Part shown: positions 50,480 through 64,000 of the stretch, one piece after another
Layout: each line of letters begins with the position of its first letter
How positions within the stretch are numbered: position 1 is the stretch's first letter
From: Fragilariopsis cylindrus CCMP1102
Lineage: Eukaryota; Bacillariophyta; Bacillariophyceae; Bacillariales; Bacillariaceae
DNA length: 64,000 nt
Assembly (NCBI GenBank): GCA_900095095.1
Contig: FMBT01000361.1
Coordinates: 172,272 to 236,271 of the forward strand
Reading direction: 5' to 3'
Notes under the pieces: generated by a model
Seen by the model: the letters and a program-made list of their open reading frames with translations, nothing else
Databases searched by the model: none
What the model was told of the DNA's origin: nothing
Position numbers and translations under genes: made by a program

Positions 50480-52209
50480 TCAGCCAGCATTACTGAGACC
50501 CCGCTCCAATTCTTTCCGAAAAGTAAGCCGTAAAGCTTTATCCCGTTGCATACTCGCACTTGTAAATTGACCCAGAATTATTGCCAAAAAAACATTGTAT
50601 GCGAGACATTGGAAAAACATGTAATTTGCGTTACCGTTGTTGACATCAAGCCACATCCAATGATCAACAATGTTTAAAAGCACTGGTACCATGAGACAAC
50701 ACAGCGCAACGAATGCAGATGAGCCCATTCGCGCCAATGATTGAGGAGAGAAAAGAAAGAAGCAAAGAGCCAGATTTGCATCATAGAGCACCTGAACTGG
50801 ACGATAAATTGTCCATACCATCGACAAAGTTGCAATCTATAGAAAGAACAAGGACGTAAAAAGGCATGAGAGTTTATAATATTGTGGAGGGAATTCCTCT
50901 GCGTAGTCAAACTTTCAAAAATTGTCTAGAGATGATATCCCCCCTGCTTTAAAACGAAGGAGATACAAAAGCTTACCAGTACTCCAGGGTATTTAATAAA
51001 GCGGATGAAAATAGGGCCAACCAATACAAATGGAAATAAGGCAAATATTGTGCCGAAGTATGCACGAAATCTGCTAAAAATTTGCATGCGAAAATACCAC
51101 TGCATTGATAAGTTAGGACCACTAGTCAACCAGGTATTCCCATAAACAGTTCCCAAGACTTTCCAATAATTTTTTGAACCAACAAGACTGTAAGTTATTC
51201 CTTGTAAACAAAACGACCAAACGGCAAAGAGAACAATAACAAATATTGCAGATTTGATCGTCGTTGTATTATTTTTCGAAGCTGAAGTCGAATGTATAGA
51301 CGTTTGGTTGAAATCATTGACATATGACATCATGATGACTGGAGCCAAAAAAACTATATGATGTGGTTCCATATATGCCGCAACTGCAAGGTAAAAAGAT
51401 GCCATGGACAAAGATCCAGATGAAGAATGACAGGAAGATTCGTAGACGCTTGCGACGAGGAAAAGAGATGGAATATTTTGCCAGCAATAAAAGAGTCCTG
51501 TTGGTAAGAAAGTGAATGGACTCCAATAATATATTTGTGCAGATAGTAGTGGAATATTCCTCATTTTAATCAAAGGTTCTGGCCTTCGCATGTTACTTTC
51601 TTGTTTCGATGATCCTTTCAACGTGGATATACTGTCTAAATCACTTCTGTTGATTGGAAAAATATGATCGTTTTGCGGTCGAATCGTATCAGGTAATCTT
51701 GGTTGAAGATCATCTTCCTCTATCGGTCGTGGAAGCTGTGAACCAATACTATCATCCGGTGGGGAACGATATTTCACCAGCAGTAATTGGACTCCAATTT
51801 GTTCAAGCAAATAAGAAATTAAGAAATCTACCAATATCAAAATAATCGACAACCACAGTCCGGGATTAGAAGTCTCCATCAAGGGGGAGAATAACACGAG
51901 CAGCAAAGGAGGTATCCGGATCGAATCATTTCCTAGATATAAACTTGAAAAATTATTTGACTTGGACAAAGTCTGAATAGCGCGTGCTTCTTCCAAGTAC
52001 GCCAGACTTTCGTGAGGACGAAATAATATAGAAAGAAAGGAGGGATTGTAGAGCCATTTTCCTGTTGTCTGTGTCCAACCAGAAATAGTTCTAGTCGTTG
52101 CCGAGGGGATTAGATATGGCAATATTATCAAAGCCAATCGGATCAAAGTAACCCAATAAGTCGATGGTTTTCTCAGGAAATTCGAATCATTTGTTTTTCT
52201 TTGAGACAT
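50480..52209 (-). CDS. PIGU: GPI transamidase subunit PIG-U (exons 50977..52209, 50480..50836)
   Basis: PIG-U is a multi-pass ER protein of the GPI transamidase complex, which attaches GPI anchors to proteins. Exon 1 has PHESLAYLEEARAI, a luminal-loop region, DSIRIPPLLLVLFSPLM, IPLLSAQIYYWSPFTFLP, then GPNLSMQWYFRMQIFSRFR, the counterpart of the NxxLxWYFxxxxF motif, and PFVLVGPIFIRFIKYPGVL. GTAAGC and TATAG ends remove a 140-bp phase-0 intron, and exon 2 continues IATLSMVWTIYRPVQVLY and MWLDVNNGNANYMFFQCLAY. The total is 529 residues, with many predicted membrane spans. A long Ser/Asp-rich insert lies at about residues 150-215. It is convergent with SEC62, 226 bp apart. Confidence 0.9.
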
Positions 52210-52449
52210 GATTCTAGTCTCCTTATTTTATATCAATCTTGGTCACTAAAAGGTGTCGTCTACAGTATAGTCGATTGCAAGGAGCGAATAATTTTTAAAG
52301 CCATGACTTTCAACTTTCCCATTAACTAACTATTTTTATTTTAAAGTTAAAAGTCTAAAGAGTGTGTGTTTTTGTGTTTTTATTCTTAGATTTTTCTTCG
52401 CGCATCTTCGAATCTCGACATCCTCAATCCCGTAACGCAGTTTGACAGT
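52210..52449. promoter_or_regulatory. Short upstream region of PIG-U cut off by a retrotransposon
   Basis: Only 240 bp separate the PIG-U start codon from the left end of the retrotransposon, so the PIG-U promoter must lie in this stretch or inside the element. The 12-mer CAGTTTGACAGT ends at the left boundary and occurs again at about 62837 beyond the right end. Confidence 0.5.
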
Positions 52450-52627
52450 TTGACACGCAGGTCCAGCAAGTGCAGTGATGAATTCGCCTCCTGCGCGTAC
52501 AACCTACGCGCAAGGAAGGCGGAGGCAGAGTGAAATAGTATACACCTATTACACTCTCATTCTTTGTCAGATTTGACCTATGTCGTCGAAAAGACTCGAC
52601 TGAAGTAACCTTACTGTATATGCTTTC
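52450..52627 (+). repeat. Terminal repeat A1
   Basis: This is the 178-bp left end of the element, starting TTGACACGCAGGTCCAGC and ending TATATGCTTTC. It matches A2 with a single visible difference (CAAGGAAGG versus CAAGAAAGG). It contains a hairpin GCGCGTA-CAAC-CTACGCGC flanked by CGCCTCC and GGCGGAGG. Confidence 0.95.
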
Positions 52628-53803
52628 TTGGGCTACACCAACAGTAAGAGTATCAACACACACTTCACAACAGGACACAGATCAATGGAACCACCAATTT
52701 CCGTCAAAAAACTCGACACCAGAGCCACGACGACGCGAAAATCAATACTTGGGTGGGTTGTAGACAGTACAACACAAACATTTGAACAACGACAGCGCCA
52801 TAGCACCACACTCCACAGCGGAGCAACGGTCTGCCATCGTCTGGTTCAAGAATCGACCTCCGGTCTCATAATCCTCACACCGGTACACACCGAGAGGACA
52901 ACCAAAGGTGCAACGACACCATCAGCTCTCGCATCAATCACAATGCAAAAGCAGTAAACCAATACAGATTCGGTCCAAATTTTTGTGACAGCGCACGCCG
53001 CGCTCACGTCACCAAAAACCAGCCAATTGCACTTAAGGACTGCCACCGGCACGTCATTTTTAGTTTTCACTTTCACTTTACTACCACAATACGAGGAACA
53101 ACGGAAACACCACCGCACACAAGCGCGCCTTTAGGGATCTCGACGCATACGTCGACGAACCTTCAAAACAGCCGGCACTACGGGCTATAAACACTATCAG
53201 CACGCGCCAGCCACTCATACCTTTTATCATTTACGGTTGGCTCGCCACACGCCGTCAGGCACAACTCATCGTTACGATCACCTTTTAACATGATAAGGCA
53301 AAACGCGAAACACCTTTTCGCTCACAAATCACATGTGGTTTCTCCACCTGCTACCACGGGAAAGAACAATGCCGGAATCAAACTTCCATTCCAACGCTCG
53401 ACACCAGCGTACGATAAATTCAACGCCACCGTACAAATTCAACGCCGGAGTGAATCCTTATATGCCGCTTATTTCAAATTCACGAATGTTCTAAGTACAA
53501 CAACATTGCAACAACATTGGCGACAACCATATAGGGAACGAGCACCTTTTCTGTGCACTCTCGACTCCGTCACAGGTTACATACGAACCAACGGTAGCGT
53601 CAAACGCATTAGATCACGCAAACGGAACCAACGCTTCCGTTAGAGCTATATTTCCTTGCCCTAACGCTCAAATGAACAACATTTGACAAAGATTTACTTA
53701 AAATATTCTTTTACACTCTAGTATTCCACCGAAATTTTACTTGTATTTACGTTAATCTACACGACTTTCATAGCATTTCCGTCGTTCATTTCAAACCTAT
53801 CAA
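52628..53803 (+). other. Leader region of the retrotransposon, possible ORF0
   Basis: This 1.2-kb A/C-rich stretch lies between A1 and the gag-like ORF. The longest frame with an ATG is 53290-53643 (117 residues, Arg/Lys-rich end with RSRKRNQRFR), without a known domain. Other frames are broken. It may be an untranslated leader or a degraded ORF. Confidence 0.45.
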
Positions 53804-55300
53804 ATGTTCCGGTCTCCTTCTAGTCACAAAACAAACTTGACTTCAAATCAAAACCTTCTTTGCAACTCAACCAACATCAACGTTTTCTTAGCAATCATGT
53901 CTCTTCAAAACACACTTGCATCCCTCCTTTTGTCTGAGGCACATCGCCCAGCACAGGACACAGCGTTGTTCAACACAGCGTCGTTCGAAACAAACTCGGA
54001 ACATTTCCCCGTCTCGGATGCTTGGTGGAACACCGGATCCATTTGCGTTGCTATGCTCCAACACGAACCAGGAGTGGTAACAGCGATGATGATCGTAGGA
54101 GTTGAAGGTGACAAACGTTACGCCATCACTCTCGAGTCCACTCCGAAACTCGTCGAATTCACCACCGACGACCTGATGCAAATCCCTATGAAGTTAGCAA
54201 AAGTCAGCACCCAAAAAGACACAAAACTTTTTGTCCCTACATCATGCGCCAACGGCCTCCGCCGTGGTCTTCGCATTGCCCCACTCCGAACGGAGTACTT
54301 GCATTTCGCTTTCAACGAGGACGCCACCCCGCGCCATCCTCATGAATTCTACCATGCCCTGAAGGATATCAAGGACGGCAATGTCCGCATGATCCAAGCT
54401 TGGGCAAAGGCAGCTTGCCTTAAAACCAGCTCGCTCACAATTCGAAGTGCAATCGAACTCTCTCCTACTATTCTGCCACAGTTTGCCGATCCAATCGCAT
54501 ACCAGAAGTACCGAGACATCTCTGATGCCTTCGTCGATGAAGATGATGCTCACGACGTCTTTGTCGCTGCACTCTTAAAGGAATTCAACCCAATCATCCG
54601 AATGGAGCCAGATAACGCCGCCGTTACTGAGGACCGTCCACAAGCTCAAACTGAACGTCCACCACAGCCAGCAGACGACGACTCCGACATCGAAGACGTC
54701 ACTCCGGCATACGCAAGTCGCAACAATCAGGACCGGCAACACACCCGCCGACCAAGTACCACGTCTCCTTACAACGAGCAACGTTCTCAGGGACGCTACC
54801 CAAACAGGTGCGTCCAATGGAACACCAGCGACAACCTCGAATGCCCTCCACTAGCGTCGGAACATTTCACAGCACGCACGAACTACGCTGCCATGGATTC
54901 CAACAGCTACAACAACAATTCTGGGACCCATCCTTGGACTCAAACTCCAAGAAACTCATGGGGAGCTCACTCGGGACCACCTTCTATCAATCGGCACAGC
55001 ACAGGCACCTCCACCTTCAGGTCACGTGAACCGAACATTTTCACCACTTCCACCAGAGCAAGCTCTAGCCTGAGTCCCTTTGGCTCCAGTCCGTCATCGA
55101 GCGCGGCCGATAAACTCAAAGAACTCAGCGAGTTGTGCACTCAACGTCCGCCAACAACATCAGAAATGAACCAGTGGAACATTCTCAATGCCATGATCGG
55201 TTCACCTACTACATCGGCCACTGACGAAACCAAGAAGAATTTCTTGGCATGCAACAGTTTAGCGTCCTTGCATGGGCAAACGTACATCCAAACGACGTAG
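53804..55300 (+). CDS. Gag-like ORF1a of the retrotransposon
   Basis: This frame of 498 codons (a second ATG at 53897 is an alternative start) begins with SLQNTLASLLLSEAHRP after the second Met. The first 270 residues look globular (FPVSDAWWNTGSICVAML, LVEFTTDDLMQIPMKL, RYRDISD-like KYRDISDAFVDEDDAH). After that it is Pro/Ser/Asn-rich. No nucleocapsid knuckle occurs here. It ends at 55300 within a 52-bp overlap with the next frame, which carries the likely RNA-binding part. The first-ORF position argues for a capsid role. Similarity to known gag proteins cannot be shown by eye. Confidence 0.6.
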   Translation: MFRSPSSHKTNLTSNQNLLCNSTNINVFLAIMSLQNTLASLLLSEAHRPAQDTALFNTASFETNSEHFPVSDAWWNTGSICVAMLQHEPGVVTAMMIVGVEGDKRYAITLESTPKLVEFTTDDLMQIPMKLAKVSTQKDTKLFVPTSCANGLRRGLRIAPLRTEYLHFAFNEDATPRHPHEFYHALKDIKDGNVRMIQAWAKAACLKTSSLTIRSAIELSPTILPQFADPIAYQKYRDISDAFVDEDDAHDVFVAALLKEFNPIIRMEPDNAAVTEDRPQAQTERPPQPADDDSDIEDVTPAYASRNNQDRQHTRRPSTTSPYNEQRSQGRYPNRCVQWNTSDNLECPPLASEHFTARTNYAAMDSNSYNNNSGTHPWTQTPRNSWGAHSGPPSINRHSTGTSTFRSREPNIFTTSTRASSSLSPFGSSPSSSAADKLKELSELCTQRPPTTSEMNQWNILNAMIGSPTTSATDETKKNFLACNSLASLHGQTYIQTT

Positions 55301-56391
55301 ATTACCTTAACAATCACAACAATTACTTTTGGCCTAAACTCAATGCTTGCAAAAACAAACCCGACGCACGGCACGTCGTACGAACGGAGATGTTCCAACA
55401 TCTCATACACAAGCACCCGAAACTCATCACCTGCCTCCACGACGATTTGATCGAGACCATCATCAACTTTCGCTTCAAGCCGGTGAACCTAGAAAGCGAC
55501 AAACCAACATTAGGATTAGGTCCTATGGCATTCGTACCTCGAGATCGCCGGGAAATTGAGATGATGTCTCATCAGATATCCATCAACGAACAATCCGATT
55601 CACCAACAACTTCGGATATTGACAAAACACGCCTCGGGCGTCCAAAAATTCCAGATGGCGCATCCGGCACCACCTCTACCATCGAATCATGCGCATTGGT
55701 CAATGATTTTTTGTGGGCTCCCAGATGCCCTTATGTCAACCTCGCACAGGGCAGCCTTCTAGCACTGTATGAGGGAAATCAGCATTACGAACACCAAACC
55801 AGTTTCGGCACCACCGTCGGTGCAGAATGCCTATTCCAGCTCACACGCGGAGCGGAACAGTTCTTCGGCCAAGCTACAAGCGAACGCCAACTACTCCAAG
55901 GACAGTTACCGACCTTAAATTTCAATTTCCTCATCGAGGGTATCCGAAACAACAATCTCAACACGTCACAAACGCGTCCTTCGCTCTTCGTACCAGCGCA
56001 AACGAAAGCACGTCCTGCACCAGGAACACCACGTGGTCCAAAAACACCCAAGGTTAAGGGTCCAGGCAAAGGCGCACCACCAGCCACGCAACCACCAAAG
56101 TCTAGCACTGTTACTCGTCAAATGGGAAACGGCATGACCACGCTTATCAACGATTGGAAAAAGGCACACAATAAGGCCCGTATGCCTAATATATTAGATT
56201 TTAGAAAGGCAAGCGACATTGCTGACGACGCAGCGCTCCAAACGCTACTCAATCTCAACACCGCCACCTGCATCCGCTGGGCACTACTAGGTAGCTGCCG
56301 CAGTAACTGCAAACGCGATCATCCTCAAACAATTACAGGCTTTGCAGAAACAGCGGCAGAGGACATCCTCCGCAAAGGTCTTCCAGAGTAA
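55249..56391 (+). CDS. Gag-like ORF1b with Cys/His motif
   Basis: This frame of 380 codons is in the -1 phase relative to ORF1a and overlaps it. It could be reached by frameshifting, by its own ATG at 55249, or the two may be one ORF split by an indel. It contains EMFQHLIHKHPKLITCLHDD, a Pro/Lys-rich basic linker (PGTPRGPKTPKVKGPGKG) and, near the end, CIRWALLGSCRSNCKRDHPQ, a C-x8-C-x3-C-x3-H array that could bind zinc and RNA like a nucleocapsid. It then ends shortly before the RT frame. Confidence 0.6.
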   Translation: MQQFSVLAWANVHPNDVDYLNNHNNYFWPKLNACKNKPDARHVVRTEMFQHLIHKHPKLITCLHDDLIETIINFRFKPVNLESDKPTLGLGPMAFVPRDRREIEMMSHQISINEQSDSPTTSDIDKTRLGRPKIPDGASGTTSTIESCALVNDFLWAPRCPYVNLAQGSLLALYEGNQHYEHQTSFGTTVGAECLFQLTRGAEQFFGQATSERQLLQGQLPTLNFNFLIEGIRNNNLNTSQTRPSLFVPAQTKARPAPGTPRGPKTPKVKGPGKGAPPATQPPKSSTVTRQMGNGMTTLINDWKKAHNKARMPNILDFRKASDIADDAALQTLLNLNTATCIRWALLGSCRSNCKRDHPQTITGFAETAAEDILRKGLPE

Positions 56392-56529
56392 GACACATCT
56401 TGCTGCTCTACGCGTACGCGTGTATTTACATCTCTTTACGTTGCTATACTAAACTACCTATAAAATACTTTTTGCATCACTAAATCTATTCTATTCTTAT
56501 ATTCCTACTCTGCTTAACGCTCTATAACA

Positions 56530-57891
56530 AAGACGCCCTAACCTAGAACATAGGCCAGCGGCACCTCGGGTTAGCAACAGTCAGAGATACTCACATCAGC
56601 ACAACACTCGCTACATCTCCTGCAATTCCGAACAACGGGCATTCGAGGAAAACGAACAACTCAATCGACTAGCTGCCACACGAAACTCTTCCACTCAGGA
56701 AATCATAGACCACGCACGCCATCGAGCAATACATGTTTCACAGCTACCGACAGCACCACCTACGCCTACCCCAGCGCAGCTACCTGCAACACCTCCACCC
56801 CTGCGACCACGAGGAGGAGGACCATCAACGACTGAACCACCGGCACACACGCCAATACAAAGTAAGTTACCAAAATTTAAGGGGCTCATGCTCCCGCGTC
56901 ATGAAGTTTTAACACACCCTGCAGGTCCAGACCTCCTCCGATACGCAGTCGATGGTTGCCCTGTTGACTGTGGCGACCAATGGTCTCGCGAACGAATCGA
57001 AGCAGCAATCGAAAAAGGAGCCCATGCCAGCGCAGAAGCTCCAGGAGCAGCAGAGGCATGTCGTAAAGAAGCACTCGAAAGAGTTGCTGACGGATGCTGT
57101 CGCCTCGTCACTTGGGACAAAATCAAACACAACATCCCTCCTAACTTAAAGGTCTCACCAATAGCTGCAGTACCGCACAAGTCTCGTATTTACCGCATGA
57201 TCCTGGATTTGTCATTCCAAATCACGCTGAACGGAAAAAGCTACAATCGGTAAACGAAACTTCCGACAAATCTTTGCACCACAGCATGCCATGTACGAAC
57301 TCGGCAACGTCATCCCACGCATCATTTGGGCAATGGCAACATCGCACGACACCACAACACCATTTCTGTTCACGAAAGTCGACCTCAAAGACGGGTATTG
57401 GCGGATGTGTGTTTAACAGCGACGACGCCTGGAACTTCGCTTACGTCCTTCCAGGTGGTCAAAAATCAGATCCAATCCAGTTGGTCATACCGGAGGCCCT
57501 ACAAATGGGATGGGGAGAATCACCCCCGTTTTTCTGTGCAGCAACCGAAACGGCACGCGACATTGCACAGGAAAAATTCGACAACCATACTCCGGTCCCA
57601 GCACAGCCTATGGAGGACATCATGATGGACATCGATTGGAACACCGTCCCAAGTCCAGTCCCTCCACCAACAACAGAACGTTCCAAGCGCCAATTCGTCA
57701 ACCTTCTCGAAGTGTACATCGATGATTTCATCGGCCTCATTCAAAGCACAAACAAAGATCATCTGCTCCAATTTTCACGCACAATCCTCAGCGCAATAAC
57801 GGACGTTTTCCCACCACCAGAAATCACCAACAGTGCAATGGGTCCACCAGTTTCCATAAAAAACTCATTGCCGAAGGCACTTGGGAAATAA
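56530..57891 (+). CDS. Reverse transcriptase of the retrotransposon (frame-broken)
   Basis: The RT starts with a Pro-rich leader (PPTPTPAQLPATPPPLRPRG) and then VSPIAAVPHKSRIYRMILDL. Motif A is FTKVDLKDGYWRM, followed by DDAWNFAYVLPGG, PEALQMGWGESPPFFCAATE and motif C VYIDDFIGLI with the catalytic Asp pair. This is the DIRS/Ngaro type of RT rather than gypsy or copia. The conserved domain runs through different frames: shifts are needed near 57250 (TAA after KSYNR), 57272 (a T missing in a T run), about 57412 (an extra T) and about 57860 (an A missing in an A run). The order and content of motifs are complete. Confidence 0.82.
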
Positions 57892-59176
57892 GGAAGGAAA
57901 TCCTAGGATGGTTGTTCGATGGCATCGCACGAACTATAGAACTGCCAGAAAACAAAGGCAGAACTATACGAACCGAAGTCAAACGTATACTGCGAGGAAA
58001 ATCCAAACGAGTACCAACACAGACTTCCAAAAAGTTCACGGCAAACTCCAATTCACATCGATAGCAATCCCATGTGGCAAACCACTTCTAGGTCCTCTCG
58101 ACCAGGCCATCGCCATCGCAGAACGACACAACAGACATCATGTAACATTGACAGACGACATTCGACTCTGCCTCAGGGATTGGATTGCACTCATTCGACA
58201 GTTAGGCCAACGCCCTACACACGTCAACGAATTAGTGTTGCACAAAGCTTTGTATCAGGGTTTCGTCGATGCATCAAAATGGGGCGTAGGAGGAGTATGG
58301 TTCGGAGGAACAAACCAAATTTCACCAATCGTTTGGTTCTGGGAATGGCCTACAGAGGTTCGAAACAATCTCGTCACCTCCTCAAATCGAAAAGGCCGCC
58401 TAACCATCTCCGATCTAGAACTAATGGGCATCCTGCTCCACTGGCTCGTCCTAGAAGCATCGGTGGACAACGACACTCTTACACACTCCAGCATCGCCAT
58501 TTGGTGCGACAATCTACCAGCAGTGTCTTGGATATACAAAATGCGCACCAGCACATCACCGGTTGCTTCACGCATACTTCGAGCCTTAGCAGTTCGACTC
58601 CAGCATCAACAATCGGGTCTACTCGCAATCGACCACATCTCAGGAATTTACAATATTATGGCGGACGTCGCTTCACGCAAGCATGTTTCTAACCCTACAC
58701 AATTCCTCGATTATTTTACAAAAACTTTCACTCCTCCTCAGGGAAACTTCTGGACTTTGTTCCAATTTCACGACAATCTATTATCAAAGATCTCTTCCGA
58801 GATGTTGAACGCTCCGTCGTCCTTGGCATCGTGGAATCAACTGCCAACGAAAAAAGGCGTTTTTGGTCGGCTTGGTGCAATTTCCTCGGACTCAACTTTC
58901 CCAAACTTGACCCAAAAATGCGTGCTCTCACTCCACCTCAACGAGTCGAACTGCTGGCTGCCTTCGCCCACCATGTGCGTTCCGGAGGCGTTTCTAGACG
59001 AACTCAGCAAGTTCGCACCCAAACAGTCGAGGTGGCGCTTCGCGCCATCAGCACGATGTTCCAAATGGACCATGAACCTAGTCCCTTGGTTACGTCGCAA
59101 GGAAAGTATACGAAAAAAATCGGCCAGCTTCTTGAAAGCTACCGACGCGAAGATCCTCCGTCAAAACCGAAATTAG
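57881..59176 (+). CDS. RT thumb and RNase H of the retrotransposon
   Basis: After one further shift near 58028 this frame reads FQKVHGKLQFTSIAIPCGKP, the connection after the RT palm. The RNase H domain follows with its acidic residues in place: GFVDASKWGVGGVWF, LTISDLELMGILLHWLV, IWCDNLPAVSWIYKM and YNIMADVASRKH. The end of the frame (NQLPTKKGVFGRLGA) overlaps the recombinase frame in the +2 phase, so RT-RH and YR are probably separate, overlapping ORFs. No methyltransferase motif typical of DIRS1 was seen between them. Confidence 0.82.
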   Translation: MGNKEGNPRMVVRWHRTNYRTARKQRQNYTNRSQTYTARKIQTSTNTDFQKVHGKLQFTSIAIPCGKPLLGPLDQAIAIAERHNRHHVTLTDDIRLCLRDWIALIRQLGQRPTHVNELVLHKALYQGFVDASKWGVGGVWFGGTNQISPIVWFWEWPTEVRNNLVTSSNRKGRLTISDLELMGILLHWLVLEASVDNDTLTHSSIAIWCDNLPAVSWIYKMRTSTSPVASRILRALAVRLQHQQSGLLAIDHISGIYNIMADVASRKHVSNPTQFLDYFTKTFTPPQGNFWTLFQFHDNLLSKISSEMLNAPSSLASWNQLPTKKGVFGRLGAISSDSTFPNLTQKCVLSLHLNESNCWLPSPTMCVPEAFLDELSKFAPKQSRWRFAPSARCSKWTMNLVPWLRRKESIRKKSASFLKATDAKILRQNRN

Positions 59177-59954
59177 CTATACCGTTATCTGTCCCAACAT
59201 ACTTAGTACTCTCGGGTCTGTCGTCCAATGCACCCAAGCAACAAACAGTAGGAAATATGGCCACCATAGCTTTTCACTACCTCTCCGAGGAGGAGAATAC
59301 ACGTTCGTCGATCCCAAGCAACGTCGACGAACTAAACAGTTTCGAGTCTGTGACGTAACATTTTGGAACAACAATACCATCCTTCCGCACTCACTCCCAA
59401 TCGACGTTTTATTTCGTGAAGCAACAGAGGCTACCCTCCATATCTCGAATCAAAAGAATGGCAAAAGAGCACAAACAATTCACCAAGATGTAACAGATAC
59501 ACCACCTTGCCCAGTTCATGCCTTAATACGTCAAATAAAACATATATTAGCGCATACAACAGATACCGCTACAATTATAAGCACCTTTTTCGACAAGAAA
59601 TATCCAACAGGACGAGCGCTACGCACTGGGTGCATGACACGCGCGTTACAAAAAGCAGTCACACATCTACGCCTTGATCGACAAGGCATTCACCCAAGCG
59701 AAGTCAGCTCACATAGCCTGCGAGCCGGCGGCGCGACAGCCATGCATCTAAACGGAATTTCGGATCGTACCATACAAAAAATGGGACGCTGGAGCAGCGA
59801 TACATTCCTCATATACATACACGAACAAATCGCCGCTTTTTCAAGGGGCGTATCTAAACAGATGGGCCAGCACGTTAATTTCAAAAACATACGACGCACG
59901 TTTGAGCCAATCAACTCGCCAGAACTCCGTATCGCAACAACGGTGCAAAACTAG
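58780..59954 (+). CDS. Tyrosine recombinase (YR) of the retrotransposon
   Basis: This is the integrase of the element. The N-terminal SAM-like region reads EKRRFWSAWCNFLGLNFP and LTPPQRVELLAAFAHHVRSG. The catalytic domain begins AFHYL-LRGGEYTFVDPK, where a one-base shift at about 59281 splits the first catalytic Arg region. It then continues QFRVCDVTFWNNN, SSHSLRAGGATAMHL (the H-x-x-R pair) and MGRWSSDTFLIYIHEQ (Trp/His position and nucleophilic Tyr). With the shift ignored, all YR signature residues are present. It would recombine the circular cDNA into short identical target sites. The start is uncertain because the frame is open upstream inside the RNase H ORF. Confidence 0.85.
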
Positions 59955-60083
59955 TAACGGTTACATTTTCGCGATTTCTACACCATCACACAACAAAACC
60001 AAAACGGATATTCCACGTTGGTTGATACAACTACTTTGTACTCTTAGCACCGTTTTACCAACAGGCTCATAAAACCTATAGCC

Positions 60084-61596
60084 ATGAACAACAAAGAACC
60101 AGCGCCAATTTCTAAACCAGCACAAGCCCCAGCAGCGTTATCGCTACCCGCCTCCGCGGGAGTCGCTCCAATTTCAGATTCATCTGCCGAAACGGACGAC
60201 TCCAACGTGGAAATCACAACAACCGACACTTCGAATACACGAGAATCAACGACGGTAGTGAAATCATCTTTGAGAAAACAAACAACAATCAATAATTTCT
60301 ACGTGAAACGACCACTGCAGATAATCAGAACAAATCTAAAAGCTCACAATCCGAAAAAGAGGCTTCACACAAACACTTCTTCTACACCATCATTAACAAA
60401 TTCAACCAATTCTGCAACAATGGTATCAACACCTCCACCAAAACGTCCAAAGTTCCCAGTTCCAACTCAGCAATCCATGGCATCCATGGCTCAACTCAGT
60501 GGACTCACACCGGAACAAATGGAAACAGCATTCAAACAGTACAGGCATTCGCGTCACCACGTTACGTCACTCCTGCCGCTCATCCTCGACAGGATCAGGC
60601 CCCTTTCGTTAGAGTACCACCTCGTAACCTCAACAACAACTTTCCAGAGTATTCCGCCTCGGACTACGACTACCACAGCGCAGCTGAGTCCATCTCATCC
60701 GGTTCAGACGATTCTGTGGGACAACACCATCGTTCAGCCCGCCCTATTCGTCAAGAAAAACGGGTTGGACTCACGAAGCGACACGGTAAAGGTAGCAACA
60801 AGTGGTTCAAGCCAACTGAAGTCATCGAGGCACTTCAACGATACTACGCTTTTCGCGTTGGACATGGATACAGGCTACGACTCAACTCCGGCGTTAATCG
60901 CCTCCAACGCATTTTCGCCTTGGCGACCAAAATCGTAGGCACAACTTTGTCGCCAGACCAAATCTCAGTTATTGCAAAGGGCAAAGCTGACCTAGTCGAT
61001 CCAGCAACCCGCGTCAACCGTTTGAACCTCCAAACTGTCACAACCCACGATGCAGACCACTACGATACACATGGGGTTGGATTCGAACTCCATGACATTC
61101 TCCTCGGAATCAGAGGCAGTCTCTACAGCGATCCACGGAATCTCCCACCAAGTAACTGTGTCATCATCTTGCAATGCGAAGCAAAAGTCCCCAAAATCAG
61201 TGGGACCTGTTACGAGCACGCACTTTTCCTCCCCGACATCCTCATGCTCATCACCATCAACGATTTCGTTGATATGAAGGATAAACACCAACGTGTCGAA
61301 ACACTTGGATCATGAGAGATCAGTTCTACGAGGAAGTCAAAAACACTACCCTACTAGCCGGTAGACGCGACGTCTGCAACAAACGCATCGGAGGAAAGAT
61401 CTTTGGAGGAGGAGCAGGAACGACTGTCACATTGAAACGAGCAGTCATCGTTTCCAAAACTCCATAAGACACAAATGCACCACCATTTGCGTCCACCAAC
61501 AACACATTCATCCAACCGACTCTGTACAAAAGAGTCAACGATCGCAACGAAAGCATCGACACACGTGTCTGCATCGTCGAGCGCATCTTTACTTAA
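60084..61596 (+). CDS. Unidentified 3' ORF (ORF3) of the retrotransposon, frame-broken
   Basis: This coding region lies downstream of YR. It starts MNNKEPAPISKPAQAPAALS, is Thr/Pro/Ser-rich to about residue 150, then changes phase near 60545. The second frame contains SDYDYHSAAESISSGSDD and KRHGKGSNKWFKPTEVIEAL, then a more globular part: GFELHDILLGIRGSLYSDP, NCVIILQCEAKVPKISGTCY, EHALFLPDILMLITINDFVD. A third frame segment follows (QFYEEVKNTTLLAGRRDVCN, KIFGGGAGTTVTLKRAVIVS), with a stop at about 61467. No methyltransferase DPPY-type or SGNH-hydrolase GDS motif was seen, so it does not fit the known accessory domains of DIRS/PAT or Ngaro elements. Function unknown. Confidence 0.5.
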
Positions 61597-61963
61597 GCAC
61601 TGACGCTATACATAAGACGTCAACAACAATACTCTGATTTCACGACACAGCTTAGCCACTGTCGAACAACATCAGCAAGATATTCGTTTATAACCACATT
61701 CAATTCTAATACATATAATTTCTGTAATGATCAACAACATACTACATCTATAACCTAGTCAGTAACAACTCTAGAACTACATAGATTCCAGCACTAGTAT
61801 TTTCTATTACACGAAAAACCTCCATTCAGTCCGACTATTATATACTCGTACCTCAATCTAGACCCGCCTCTAACGCGGACTAACACACCCACGTTATTGA
61901 GGATCTAGATTACAGGTTTTCCACGATCATGGGCCTTGCCACCTACGGTAGCTTTGGTTTGTG
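61597..61963 (+). other. 3' noncoding part of the retrotransposon before B1
   Basis: No open frame is supported. It contains A/C-rich then AT-rich sequence. Near 61855-61915 there is an imperfect palindromic stretch TCTAGACCCGCCTCTAACGC facing GTTATTGAGGATCTAGAT. Confidence 0.45.
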
Positions 61964-62262
61964 GAGAAAGCATTTTTCAGTATTCATAGTAGCACACGGA
62001 TTCGAAGCCAAATTCCCCTCAAAAAGGGAAATTTGACGCCGGACCCCAGCGCCACCATAGTTCACCTATGATTCAGTCCCGAGTCGTTTCACGACCCAAC
62101 AATCAACCATAGGAAGAATCGGAAGACTGTCTGCTCCAGAAGAGAGTAGACCCATAGATCTGTGTTACGACATTGGTAAAATATAACAAGGAATGAATCA
62201 CGAGCGGATTGTCTGGTACCTAACTTAGGCTAAATTATTGGTCTTTGTGTCACTAATTTAGT
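61964..62262 (+). repeat. Internal repeat B1
   Basis: This 299-bp repeat starts GAGAAAGCATTTTTCAGT and ends CTAATTTAGT. It is identical by eye to B2 and runs directly into A2, sharing one T at the junction, as expected for the joined ends of a circular intermediate. Confidence 0.95.
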
Positions 62263-62439
62263 TGACACGCAGGTCCAGCAAGTGCAGTGATGAATTCGCC
62301 TCCTGCGCGTACAACCTACGCGCAAGAAAGGCGGAGGCAGAGTGAAATAGTATACACCTATTACACTCTCATTCTTTGTCAGATTTGACCTATGTCGTCG
62401 AAAAGACTCGACTGAAGTAACCTTACTGTATATGCTTTC
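62262..62439 (+). repeat. Internal repeat A2
   Basis: This 178-bp copy of A1 immediately follows B1. It ends ATGCTTTC, the exact reverse complement of GAAAGCAT at the start of B2, leaving a 24-bp loop between them. Confidence 0.95.
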
Positions 62440-62461
62440 CCACAACCAAACCTCACTCCTA

Positions 62462-62760
62462 GAGAAAGCATTTTTCAGTATTCATAGTAGCACACGGATT
62501 CGAAGCCAAATTCCCCTCAAAAAGGGAAATTTGACGCCGGACCCCAGCGCCACCATAGTTCACCTATGATTCAGTCCCGAGTCGTTTCACGACCCAACAA
62601 TCAACCATAGGAAGAATCGGAAGACTGTCTGCTCCAGAAGAGAGTAGACCCATAGATCTGTGTTACGACATTGGTAAAATATAACAAGGAATGAATCACG
62701 AGCGGATTGTCTGGTACCTAACTTAGGCTAAATTATTGGTCTTTGTGTCACTAATTTAGT
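62462..62760 (+). repeat. Terminal repeat B2
   Basis: This is the right end of the element, 299 bp, identical by eye to B1. Beyond CTAATTTAGT at 62760 the sequence changes to unrelated AT-rich DNA (AATAAATAACATC). Confidence 0.95.
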
Positions 62761-63250
62761 AATAAATAACATCAAATAAAAAGATCTGAGAAAATTCAAA
62801 ATCATGACTTCTGTCCGTCGTCGCTCATCAAATCACAGTTTGACAGTAGTGTTTAGTATGGACGATCACAAATTTAGAGATTGATCATTGACGATGTCGA
62901 AATGGTCTAAAAAAAAAGCATCAGAAATAATAATAGGAGCCAAAAATTATCGGCTACTGAATGATGATACATGCATTAGGAGGTAGATAGGAAGGACAAA
63001 TACAGATTCAATTTTGTAACTGGTAATAAATAATAAATAATAAATAACAAAAAAAAACTATCAAGATGATGAATAAAACGATAACAACAAACAACAACCG
63101 CTGCTGCTGTGCTCGTATTGCAACAGAAACAGAAGCAGAAAGGATGTCAGCATCGTCGTCGTCGTCGTCGTCAGAAGCTGGTATTATTTTCGTCGTCGTC
63201 GCCGTCGTCGACATCATCAACGACCACGATCGTCACTTTTTCATATTTTG
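62761..63250. other. Region upstream of the lipase-like gene
   Basis: This AT-rich flank has TAATAAATAA repeats near 63022-63050, a (TCG)n/(GTC)n run near 63153-63172 and another near 63193-63212. Open frames here are made of these triplet repeats and are not called genes. Confidence 0.45.
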
Positions 63251-63967
63251 ATGATGAAATTATTATTAGCCGTAATATGCTGCTACTTCTACTCATACTC
63301 CACGAACAACAACAACAACAACAACAACAACAACGCGAAATCTGCGTTCTTCTGCATGGCATTTACTACTACTACGACTACTACTAATACGGTAGTATCG
63401 CCATCATTACCATCGTCATCATTACTATCATCATCGTCGTCGTCCTATAACAATAACAATAACAATAACAATTACTATGATGAAATAAAGAATCTACAAC
63501 AAATGGTATATGCATCATCTTTATCATATTTATCATCGTCATCATCAGAATCAAATATAAATAAAAATGCAAATACCAATACAAATACAAATAAGAAGAC
63601 AATGGAATTATCACCATATTTTATATCAAGTCAACTAATACCATTAATTCAAATTGTTGATCCAATAAGTCAATCGGGTGTAACTATATTTGAAGATTCA
63701 TCACCAACGGATATAACAACAATACCAACGGAGACAGATACTACTACTAGGACTAGCAGCAGTAGTAGTATTAGTAGTAGTAGTAGAACTACTTGTACTA
63801 CTACTAGAACTATTGTTGTTGCATTTCGTGGTAGTGCAACACCAATTAATTTTAGTACAAATTTAAAATTTCGACTTGTTCCGATTGATGATGAATTATT
63901 ATCCATGTCATCATTGTCTAGCATTACAGCTACCAGTAGTAATTCTACTTCTAATAATTCAAATGAT

Positions 63968-64000
<33 letters not shown>
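63251..64000 (+). CDS. Class 3 lipase-like alpha/beta hydrolase, 5' part
   Basis: The start MMKLLLAVICCYFYSYS is a signal peptide. A long low-complexity region follows (Asn, Ser and Thr runs from CAA, TCA and ACT triplets). Within it NLQQMVYASSLSYLS and YFISSQLIPLIQIVDPI look structured. IVVAFRGSATPINFSTNLKF followed by RLVPIDDELL is the N-terminal signature of Lipase_3-type domains (VAFRGT...W.TNL...LVP). The nucleophile GHSLGG is not yet reached. The frame meets TGA at 63968 where a (GAT)n run begins. With one base fewer before the run it would read Asp-Asp-Asp, so the stop may be a miscount or real. The gene continues beyond the window. Confidence 0.65.
63967..64000 (+). repeat. (TGA)n trinucleotide repeat at window end
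   Basis: At least ten TGA/GAT units run to the end of the window. They give stop codons in one frame, Asp in another and Met in the third. Confidence 0.95.

Follow-up and report, generated by a model that had tools for sequence, protein, structure and literature searches.

Evidence for a recently active family of split-direct-repeat tyrosine recombinase retrotransposons in Fragilariopsis cylindrus, with a candidate +1 shift inside the reverse transcriptase

What kind of mobile element occupies positions 52450–62759 of a 64,000-nucleotide stretch of the Fragilariopsis cylindrus CCMP1102 genome (contig FMBT01000361.1, positions 172,272 to 236,271; the whole stretch is called the window below), and does it represent a lineage of its own? 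Our analysis makes it very probable that the element is a split-direct-repeat tyrosine recombinase (YR) retrotransposon of the order DIRS, belonging to a recently active family whose replication cycle we infer from its structure. The initial annotation, made from the letters of the window, was right about the kind of element and about the gag–RT/RH–YR order of its genes (RT, reverse transcriptase; RH, RNase H); it had not noticed a fourth open frame behind YR, the frame shift in RT, the overlap of RT with YR, the broken frames of this copy or the contig join.

The terminal and internal repeats were analysed by a repeat search of positions 51500–63900, which found exactly two families of direct repeats, one of 299 nucleotides (starting at 61964 and 62462; 100% identity) and one of 178 nucleotides (52450 and 62262; 99%), and no inverted repeats of at least 30 nucleotides. 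The order A1–ORFs–B1–A2–B2 (ORF, open reading frame), claimed at the outset, was thereby borne out across the window copy. Both pairs of repeats, said to be delimited to the base, were located, but comparison of the ends among the fetched copies gave a span of 52450–62759, one base shorter than that given earlier. In the compared copies A starts with TTGACACG and B ends with AATTTAG, while the bases outside vary. B1 abuts A2 with no nucleotide between them, and 22 nucleotides separate A2 from B2. Scans of the window against Rfam and for tRNAs gave no matches.

A search of the 67.9-Mb, 818-contig genome for other copies and empty sites, as the initial annotation had proposed, located the A2–B2 unit (at least 491 of 499 bases matching) at 11 places, window included, and a homologous empty site on contig C424. 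There are twelve near-full copies; their main pieces share 98.1–99.7% identity with that of the window, and the figure for the 3' part of C635 is 92%. The twelfth, C81:411729-422348, retains A1 and a single B, lacks A2 and contains an internal repeat; it looks like a copy that lost B1–A2 through recombination between B repeats, or like an assembly collapse. The C341 copy holds about 6.6 kb of extra sequence, A1 to B2 measuring 16.9 kb, and other remnants comprise a deleted copy on C184 and contig-end pieces on C792, C376 and C64. Because the right flanks form ten different sequences, two of them common to contig pairs (C166, which carries the window, with C648; C60 with C341), the family must have moved more than once, and recently. 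C605, C706 and C774 share a divergent RNase H segment, equivalent to window positions 58116-58217, which suggests gene conversion or a subfamily. At the contig ends of C523, C706, C605, C532, C306 and C774 the same left flank of 6.8 kb leads to a second, opposite-facing A1; the contigs end about 1 kb past this A1 (1180 bases in the five that have right flanks), and those right flanks all differ. This shared left end is an assembly artefact, and a composite element formed with the opposite-facing A1 6.8 kb from the six copies was rejected, since the same left end joins five different right flanks.

The window copy itself had been presented as near-intact and as a good reference copy, a description that could not be upheld. 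It was one base shorter than most measurable copies at 11 sites (between 9 and 11 of the remaining 11 could be measured at each), eight of which lie in ORFs: one in gag, four in RT, one in YR and two in ORF4, the last frame of the element. Agreement of the other copies against the window ranged from 6/10 (YR) up to 11/11. The gag, RT, YR and ORF4 frames are thus all broken in the window by single-base losses absent from most of the measured copies, and the tyrosine recombinase, described as full, is interrupted once (six of the ten measurable copies are one base longer). The losses are either mutations or assembly errors; private indels are also many in other copies.

The ends of the window copy were then compared with sequences elsewhere in the genome. 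The window ends where its contig ends, and its right flank (1,240 bases) is 100% identical, after rounding, to C57 from base 11 and to the end of C648, while the only genome match of its left flank is itself. A homologue of the right flank on C424 (90%) continues leftwards into sequence 86% like the left flank of C792 and C376 up to A1. C424 pairs the right flank with the C792/C376 left flank, which makes the C792/C376 insertion the most likely source of the right flank. These sequence matches indicate that the window contig is probably mis-joined, and 52450 and 62759 are not safe as borders of one insertion. That the window copy is instead a true rearranged insertion, arising by ectopic recombination between two copies with no assembly join, would suit its unique left flank and is feasible between copies 99% identical; we consider it improbable, since the same right flank also follows different left flanks (C166, C648) and begins a third contig, C57, and since the six contigs described above have one common left flank although right flanks differ among five of them, all five stopping at the same distance past the second A1. 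Under the mis-join, the left flank of C792 and the right flank of C57 read gaagta and taataa on the two sides of the insertion, and the empty site on C424 reads gaagtataatag (gaagtataata), which would fit an insertion without target duplication. The 12-mer CAGTTTGACAGT occurs both at the left border (52438-52449) and in the right flank (62836-62847); this repetition may be by chance, the two flanks being probably of separate origin in the genome.

The same genome encodes a second YR family (family 2; L041, C324:79001-89000), with a repeated B of 274 nucleotides and an RT 58% identical to that of the window family. Its frames are uninterrupted (gag 930, RT/RH 836, YR 416 and ORF4 600 amino acids), and its A2 was placed by its position between the two B repeats. 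ORF4 relatives also occur at C81:436921, C166:143615 and C282:4503.

The presence of RT and RNase H, as initially annotated, was confirmed by conserved motifs in a natural copy and by the predicted fold of P0010, an 82%-identical relative. The P0010 model (41 sequences; predicted local distance difference test score, pLDDT, 84.5) comprised RT and RNase H, with the tail poorly predicted from about residue 668. Its best match in the PDB was the RT of cauliflower mosaic virus (E=5.6e-14; template modelling (TM) scores 0.32/0.49), and the 50 best matches listed were all RTs, retroviral beyond the first, with TM to the query of at most 0.34. At the level of sequence, an RT/RH profile matched two weak Pol chains in the PDB (E 0.0027 and 0.0057) and 16/41 RT/RH relatives matched RVT_1 in Pfam; none of the Pfam RT models, at E up to 1, recognised the RT frames of the family itself, and scans of viral and GTDB contigs with the RT/RH relative P0012 confirmed no relatives. 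The letters SPPF in RT were considered as a methyltransferase motif and rejected, being part of the GESPPFF stretch of RT, which we take to be motif B.

In 11 of the 12 copies, window included, GGATGTGT is followed by GTTTAAC, the TAA of which ends the RT frame just after motif A, and RT homology restarts in the +1 frame at AACAGCGAC (NSDDAWNF). None of the 12 copies has an in-frame length at this site. Nonsynonymous (N) and synonymous (S) variants were counted on both sides of it, leaving out variants found only in C605/C706/C774, sites within five columns of a gap and, for part B and YR, their overlap; the p values are one-sided, from ten uncorrected tests with an assumed transition weight of 2. 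Variants shared by 2-10 of the 12 copies gave 11N:16S for gag (p=2.7e-04), 13N:16S for ORF4 (p=0.0018), 2N:5S for RT part A (p=0.021), 0N:9S for part B/RH (p=7.8e-06) and 1N:6S for YR (p=0.0021). Private variants gave 19N:26S for gag (p=6.7e-06, plus one nonsense), 8N:9S for part A (p=0.025), 5N:7S for part B (p=0.022) and 5N:8S for YR (p=0.0095). Because constraint continues beyond a shift that is present, in one form or another, in all copies, these counts argue, short of proof, that RT is still made. A +1 frameshift at GTT TAA C may recode the mRNA to give one RT/RH polypeptide, a proposal drawn from sequence for which we see about equal chances of being right or wrong. The first residues of the database protein P0009 (39 members from 8 contigs; sources lgn and ena) are MFNSDD, right at the junction, and would fit a GTG start called there.

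A number of observations weigh against this reading of the shift. C648 has one more T at the site; the RT of P0010-P0013 (80-83% identity) is uninterrupted (RMCVNSDD or RMCVNADD), so the lineage needs no shift, and that of family 2 is likewise uninterrupted; and the synonymous signal is weak for RT part A taken alone. The family could be non-autonomous for RT, its founder having lost the frame and its copies having spread on RT from another element. Consistent with such a loss, the in-frame length is absent from 12/12 copies (11 with GTTTAAC, one with a further T), and stop-free RT frames, 58% identical, are found at seven other places (C81:434252, C324, C340, C349, C299, C209 and C260). However, every shared variant in part B/RH is synonymous, the 51 matches to A2-B2 of the window family include none of the B repeats of family 2, and no intact RT outside the family is nearer than 58-59% among the 55 matches listed, so that we regard this explanation as unlikely. 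Less likely still is that a systematic sequencing or assembly error produced the shift in nearly every copy. Private single-base differences are indeed numerous among the copies, with as many as 55 deletions in C648, and the assembly is error-prone in the repeat, but these private errors are scattered whereas the shift is common to the copies, and P0009, from other sources, appears from its start to share the broken junction. As for recoding as the preferred reading, we found no report of an RT-internal shift in the split-direct-repeat YR group in the excerpts of the literature searched, which leaves it unproven that none is published.

Downstream of RT, the YR frame gave a Pfam Phage_integrase match at window:59136-59954 of 28.1 bits (cut-off 27.1), and a sequence search of the PDB with YR gave no matches. 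The RT/RH tail and YR frames overlap, and the third frame across the overlap contains stops. A tail of at least 140 amino acids was present in 78/81 relatives with the RNase H end motif (120 listed of 353 hits; 39 without the motif). The stated lack of both a methyltransferase and a hydrolase holds as far as tested: Pfam found a Dam-type methyltransferase in 0/5 family proteins and 0/41 RT/RH relatives, and no GxSxG, GDS or DPPY-type motif was seen in the four ORF4 sequences scanned. YR proteins of remote similarity (23-32% identity), which may belong to Cryptons or to YR elements of another kind, are encoded at C184:663684-664904 and on C762, C593 and C88. For the element as a whole, certain results count against our assignment and its account of insertion. 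The YR of P0002 (26.7 bits) and of family 2 (16.8 bits) score below the Pfam cut-off; the empty site on C424, a paralogue or an allele, reaches 86-90% identity and has additional sequence close to the junction; the call of no duplication spans about 11 bases and concerns another copy than that of the window; the ORF4 variants private to one copy (102N:43S, p=0.34) look neutral; and some variation among copies may be assembly error or gene conversion, the segment shared by C605, C706 and C774 included.

ORF4 has an open frame of 518 amino acids in C523 that overruns the ends of P0006 and P0007 and is perhaps shifted near its end. When the 7,995 protein-database candidates sharing most words with it were scored, three matched (97%, 75% and 34%), and a profile search with the ORF4 alignment returned the same three. 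Pfam gave no hit with E of 1 or less, a viral contig scan with the alignment confirmed no relatives, and a structure model from three sequences was useless (pLDDT 34). The ORF4 of family 2 lies at the same place and, at 20% identity in a five-sequence alignment, is a plausible homologue; a third group, about 41% identical to that of family 2, occurs at C298, C260, C398 and C209. A nucleic-acid-binding role in replication would be a guess. No report of an ORF4 of this type was found in the literature excerpts searched.

The repeats at the 3' end offered an opportunity to consider how the element might be copied. The sequence that precedes and enters B1, TTTGGTTTGTGG/AGAAAGCAT, is able to pair with that of the end of A2 and the spacer, ATGCTTTC/CCACAACCAAA, so bracketing B1–A2. 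The energy was -28.4 kcal/mol against -12.4 (standard deviation 3.0) for shuffles, with 0/500 as good, and among 1028 element tiles the only one as good was the bracket itself. In family 2 it was -20.9 against -12.1 (standard deviation 2.7; 2/500), and 4/997 tiles were as good or better, two here and two elsewhere. The two families resemble each other in spacer and bracket. The A2 end can also fold across the spacer onto the start of B2, which gives a competing hairpin (z -4.7). An RNA structure of this kind would set B1–A2 apart and might aid strand transfer or circle closure. Following the model proposed for PAT and Ngaro, RT/RNase H would reverse-transcribe the element RNA; B1–A2, in which the B end abuts the A start without the spacer and which we read as a copy of the joint between the element ends, would provide the bridge for a circular complementary DNA (cDNA); and the tyrosine recombinase would recombine the circle into a target without duplicating it. 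This cycle draws on the observed repeats, ORFs, copy number, different flanks and one homologous empty site, the last consistent with insertion without duplication, and goes beyond these in supposing a circle, a part played by B1–A2 and the recoding of RT. The RNA-to-circular-DNA step of split-direct-repeat YR elements is known as a model (PMC6681497; this and the other publications are cited from excerpts). In a more ambitious version, RT would be made only via programmed +1 frameshifting at a stop codon between motifs A and B, the RNA stem bracketing B1–A2 would help to close the cDNA as a counterpart of the DIRS1 internal complementary region, and ORF4 would supply the cycle with a factor specific to the lineage; this combination is tentative, and we think it rather doubtful as a whole.

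The family was compared with the known groups of YR retrotransposons. The Ngaro elements described in Cafeteria burkhardae (PMC8547959) and Ectocarpus (PMC12477816) likewise have A1-[ORFs]-B1A2B2, gag, RT/RH and YR, no methyltransferase, and stramenopile hosts. Those of Cafeteria are described as gag, RT/RH and YR, hence without both methyltransferase and hydrolase (PMC8547959). Since described Ngaro elements can lack both, this lack speaks neither for nor against the separate lineage that the initial annotation had thought possible. The window element is 10.3 kb against about 6 kb for Cafeteria Ngaro (PMC8547959), and its family differs from Ngaro in the 484-nucleotide RT/RH–YR overlap, ORF4 and the RT shift. 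Membership of the Ngaro group proper is a real possibility, at somewhat less than even chances, favoured by the split direct repeats after the last ORF and the lack of a methyltransferase, and disfavoured by the extensive overlap, as Ngaro and Viper are described as usually without ORF overlap (PMC3266345). PAT-like elements (Pat1, Toc, Kangaroo) share the split direct repeats; in contrast to them, a Dam-type methyltransferase was not found in the window family, and its YR is not inverted, unlike that of Kangaroo. In nematode Pat1 and Kangaroo the internal repeats lie between methyltransferase and YR (PMC4157794), whereas here they follow the last ORF. Extensive RT/YR overlap has been described for DIRS-order elements (PMC6681497). 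VIPER/TATE of kinetoplastids (PMC6681497) also have split direct repeats but occupy different hosts, and Viper is said to lack a methyltransferase (PMC3266345, PMC4157794). DIRS1-like elements share the RT/RH and YR overlap and insert without target duplication, as the window family may do; DIRS1, however, has inverted terminal repeats, an internal complementary region and a methyltransferase, where the window family has split direct repeats. The literature thus already describes split direct repeats, loss of the methyltransferase, overlap of RT with YR, and both Ngaro and PAT-like elements from stramenopiles (PMC8547959, PMC6681497, PMC4157794, PMC12477816, PMC3266345, PMC3783388), and what is new at the level of the family is the RT shift, the 484-nucleotide overlap, ORF4 and the B1–A2 bracket.

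The coordinates of the features are collected in Table 1. Outside the element, positions 50926-52227 of the reverse strand carry a PIG-U-like gene (Pfam E=3.6e-35), with the start of its open frame some 220 bases to the left of A1. In the host genome the silicon-transporter family has 27 matches, two of which, the best, span almost the whole profile, and the light-harvesting family has 104; this gene content fits a diatom-like alga, or perhaps another silicifying one. Two light-harvesting pieces matched best a multi-domain LHCI protein (9vfj) that does not carry the name of a diatom, so that genes of this family do not by themselves identify one.

Table 1. Features of the element and its right flank, in window coordinates
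Feature	Position	Strand	Basis and remarks
A1, left terminal repeat, starting TTGACACG	52450..52627	+	99% direct repeat with A2; start the same in compared copies
gag-like ORF, 847 amino acids in copy C635	53804..56391	+	Frame broken once in window
C-x8-C-x3-C-x3-H zinc-knuckle-like motif, Gag C-terminus	56269..56322	+	Also in family 2
RT part A, up to motif A, ending FTKVDLKDGYWRMCV and stop	56888..57416	+	296-amino-acid open frame in 8 other copies; broken in window
GTT TAA C, candidate +1 shift site inside RT, GTGTGTTTAAC	57411..57417	+	11/12 copies; one extra T in C648
RT part B, RNase H and C-terminal tail, +1 frame	57415..59176	+	633-amino-acid frame in C341 and C532; broken in window
Overlap of RT/RH tail and YR frames, 484 nucleotides	58693..59176	+	490 nucleotides in family 2
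Tyrosine recombinase (LLRGGEY, HSLR, Y)	58693..59954	+	420-amino-acid frame in C523, C60 and C81; broken once in window
ORF4, about 460 amino acids in relatives (P0006, 457)	60084..61467	+	End set by C-terminus of relatives; broken in window
Sequence before and at B1 start, complementary to A2 end and spacer	61953..61973	+	Folding energy
B1, ending AATTTAG, adjoining A2 without spacer	61964..62261	+	Repeat search and copy comparison
A2	62262..62439	+	Repeat search and copy comparison
Spacer between A2 and B2, 22 nucleotides, CCACAACC..CCTCACTCCTA	62440..62461	+	Conserved in family 2
B2, right terminal repeat	62462..62759	+	Repeat search and copy comparison
Right flank, probably that of another insertion (mis-join)	62760..64000		Flank matches on other contigs

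Family 2 is a better basis than the window copy for a description of the lineage. A young family of about a dozen near-identical copies, together with this second family and the conserved bracket, provides concrete sequences with which the RNA-to-circle step can be tested, and, if true, a +1 shift linked to a stop codon halfway through the RT domain would be an unusual way of setting the dose of the enzyme.

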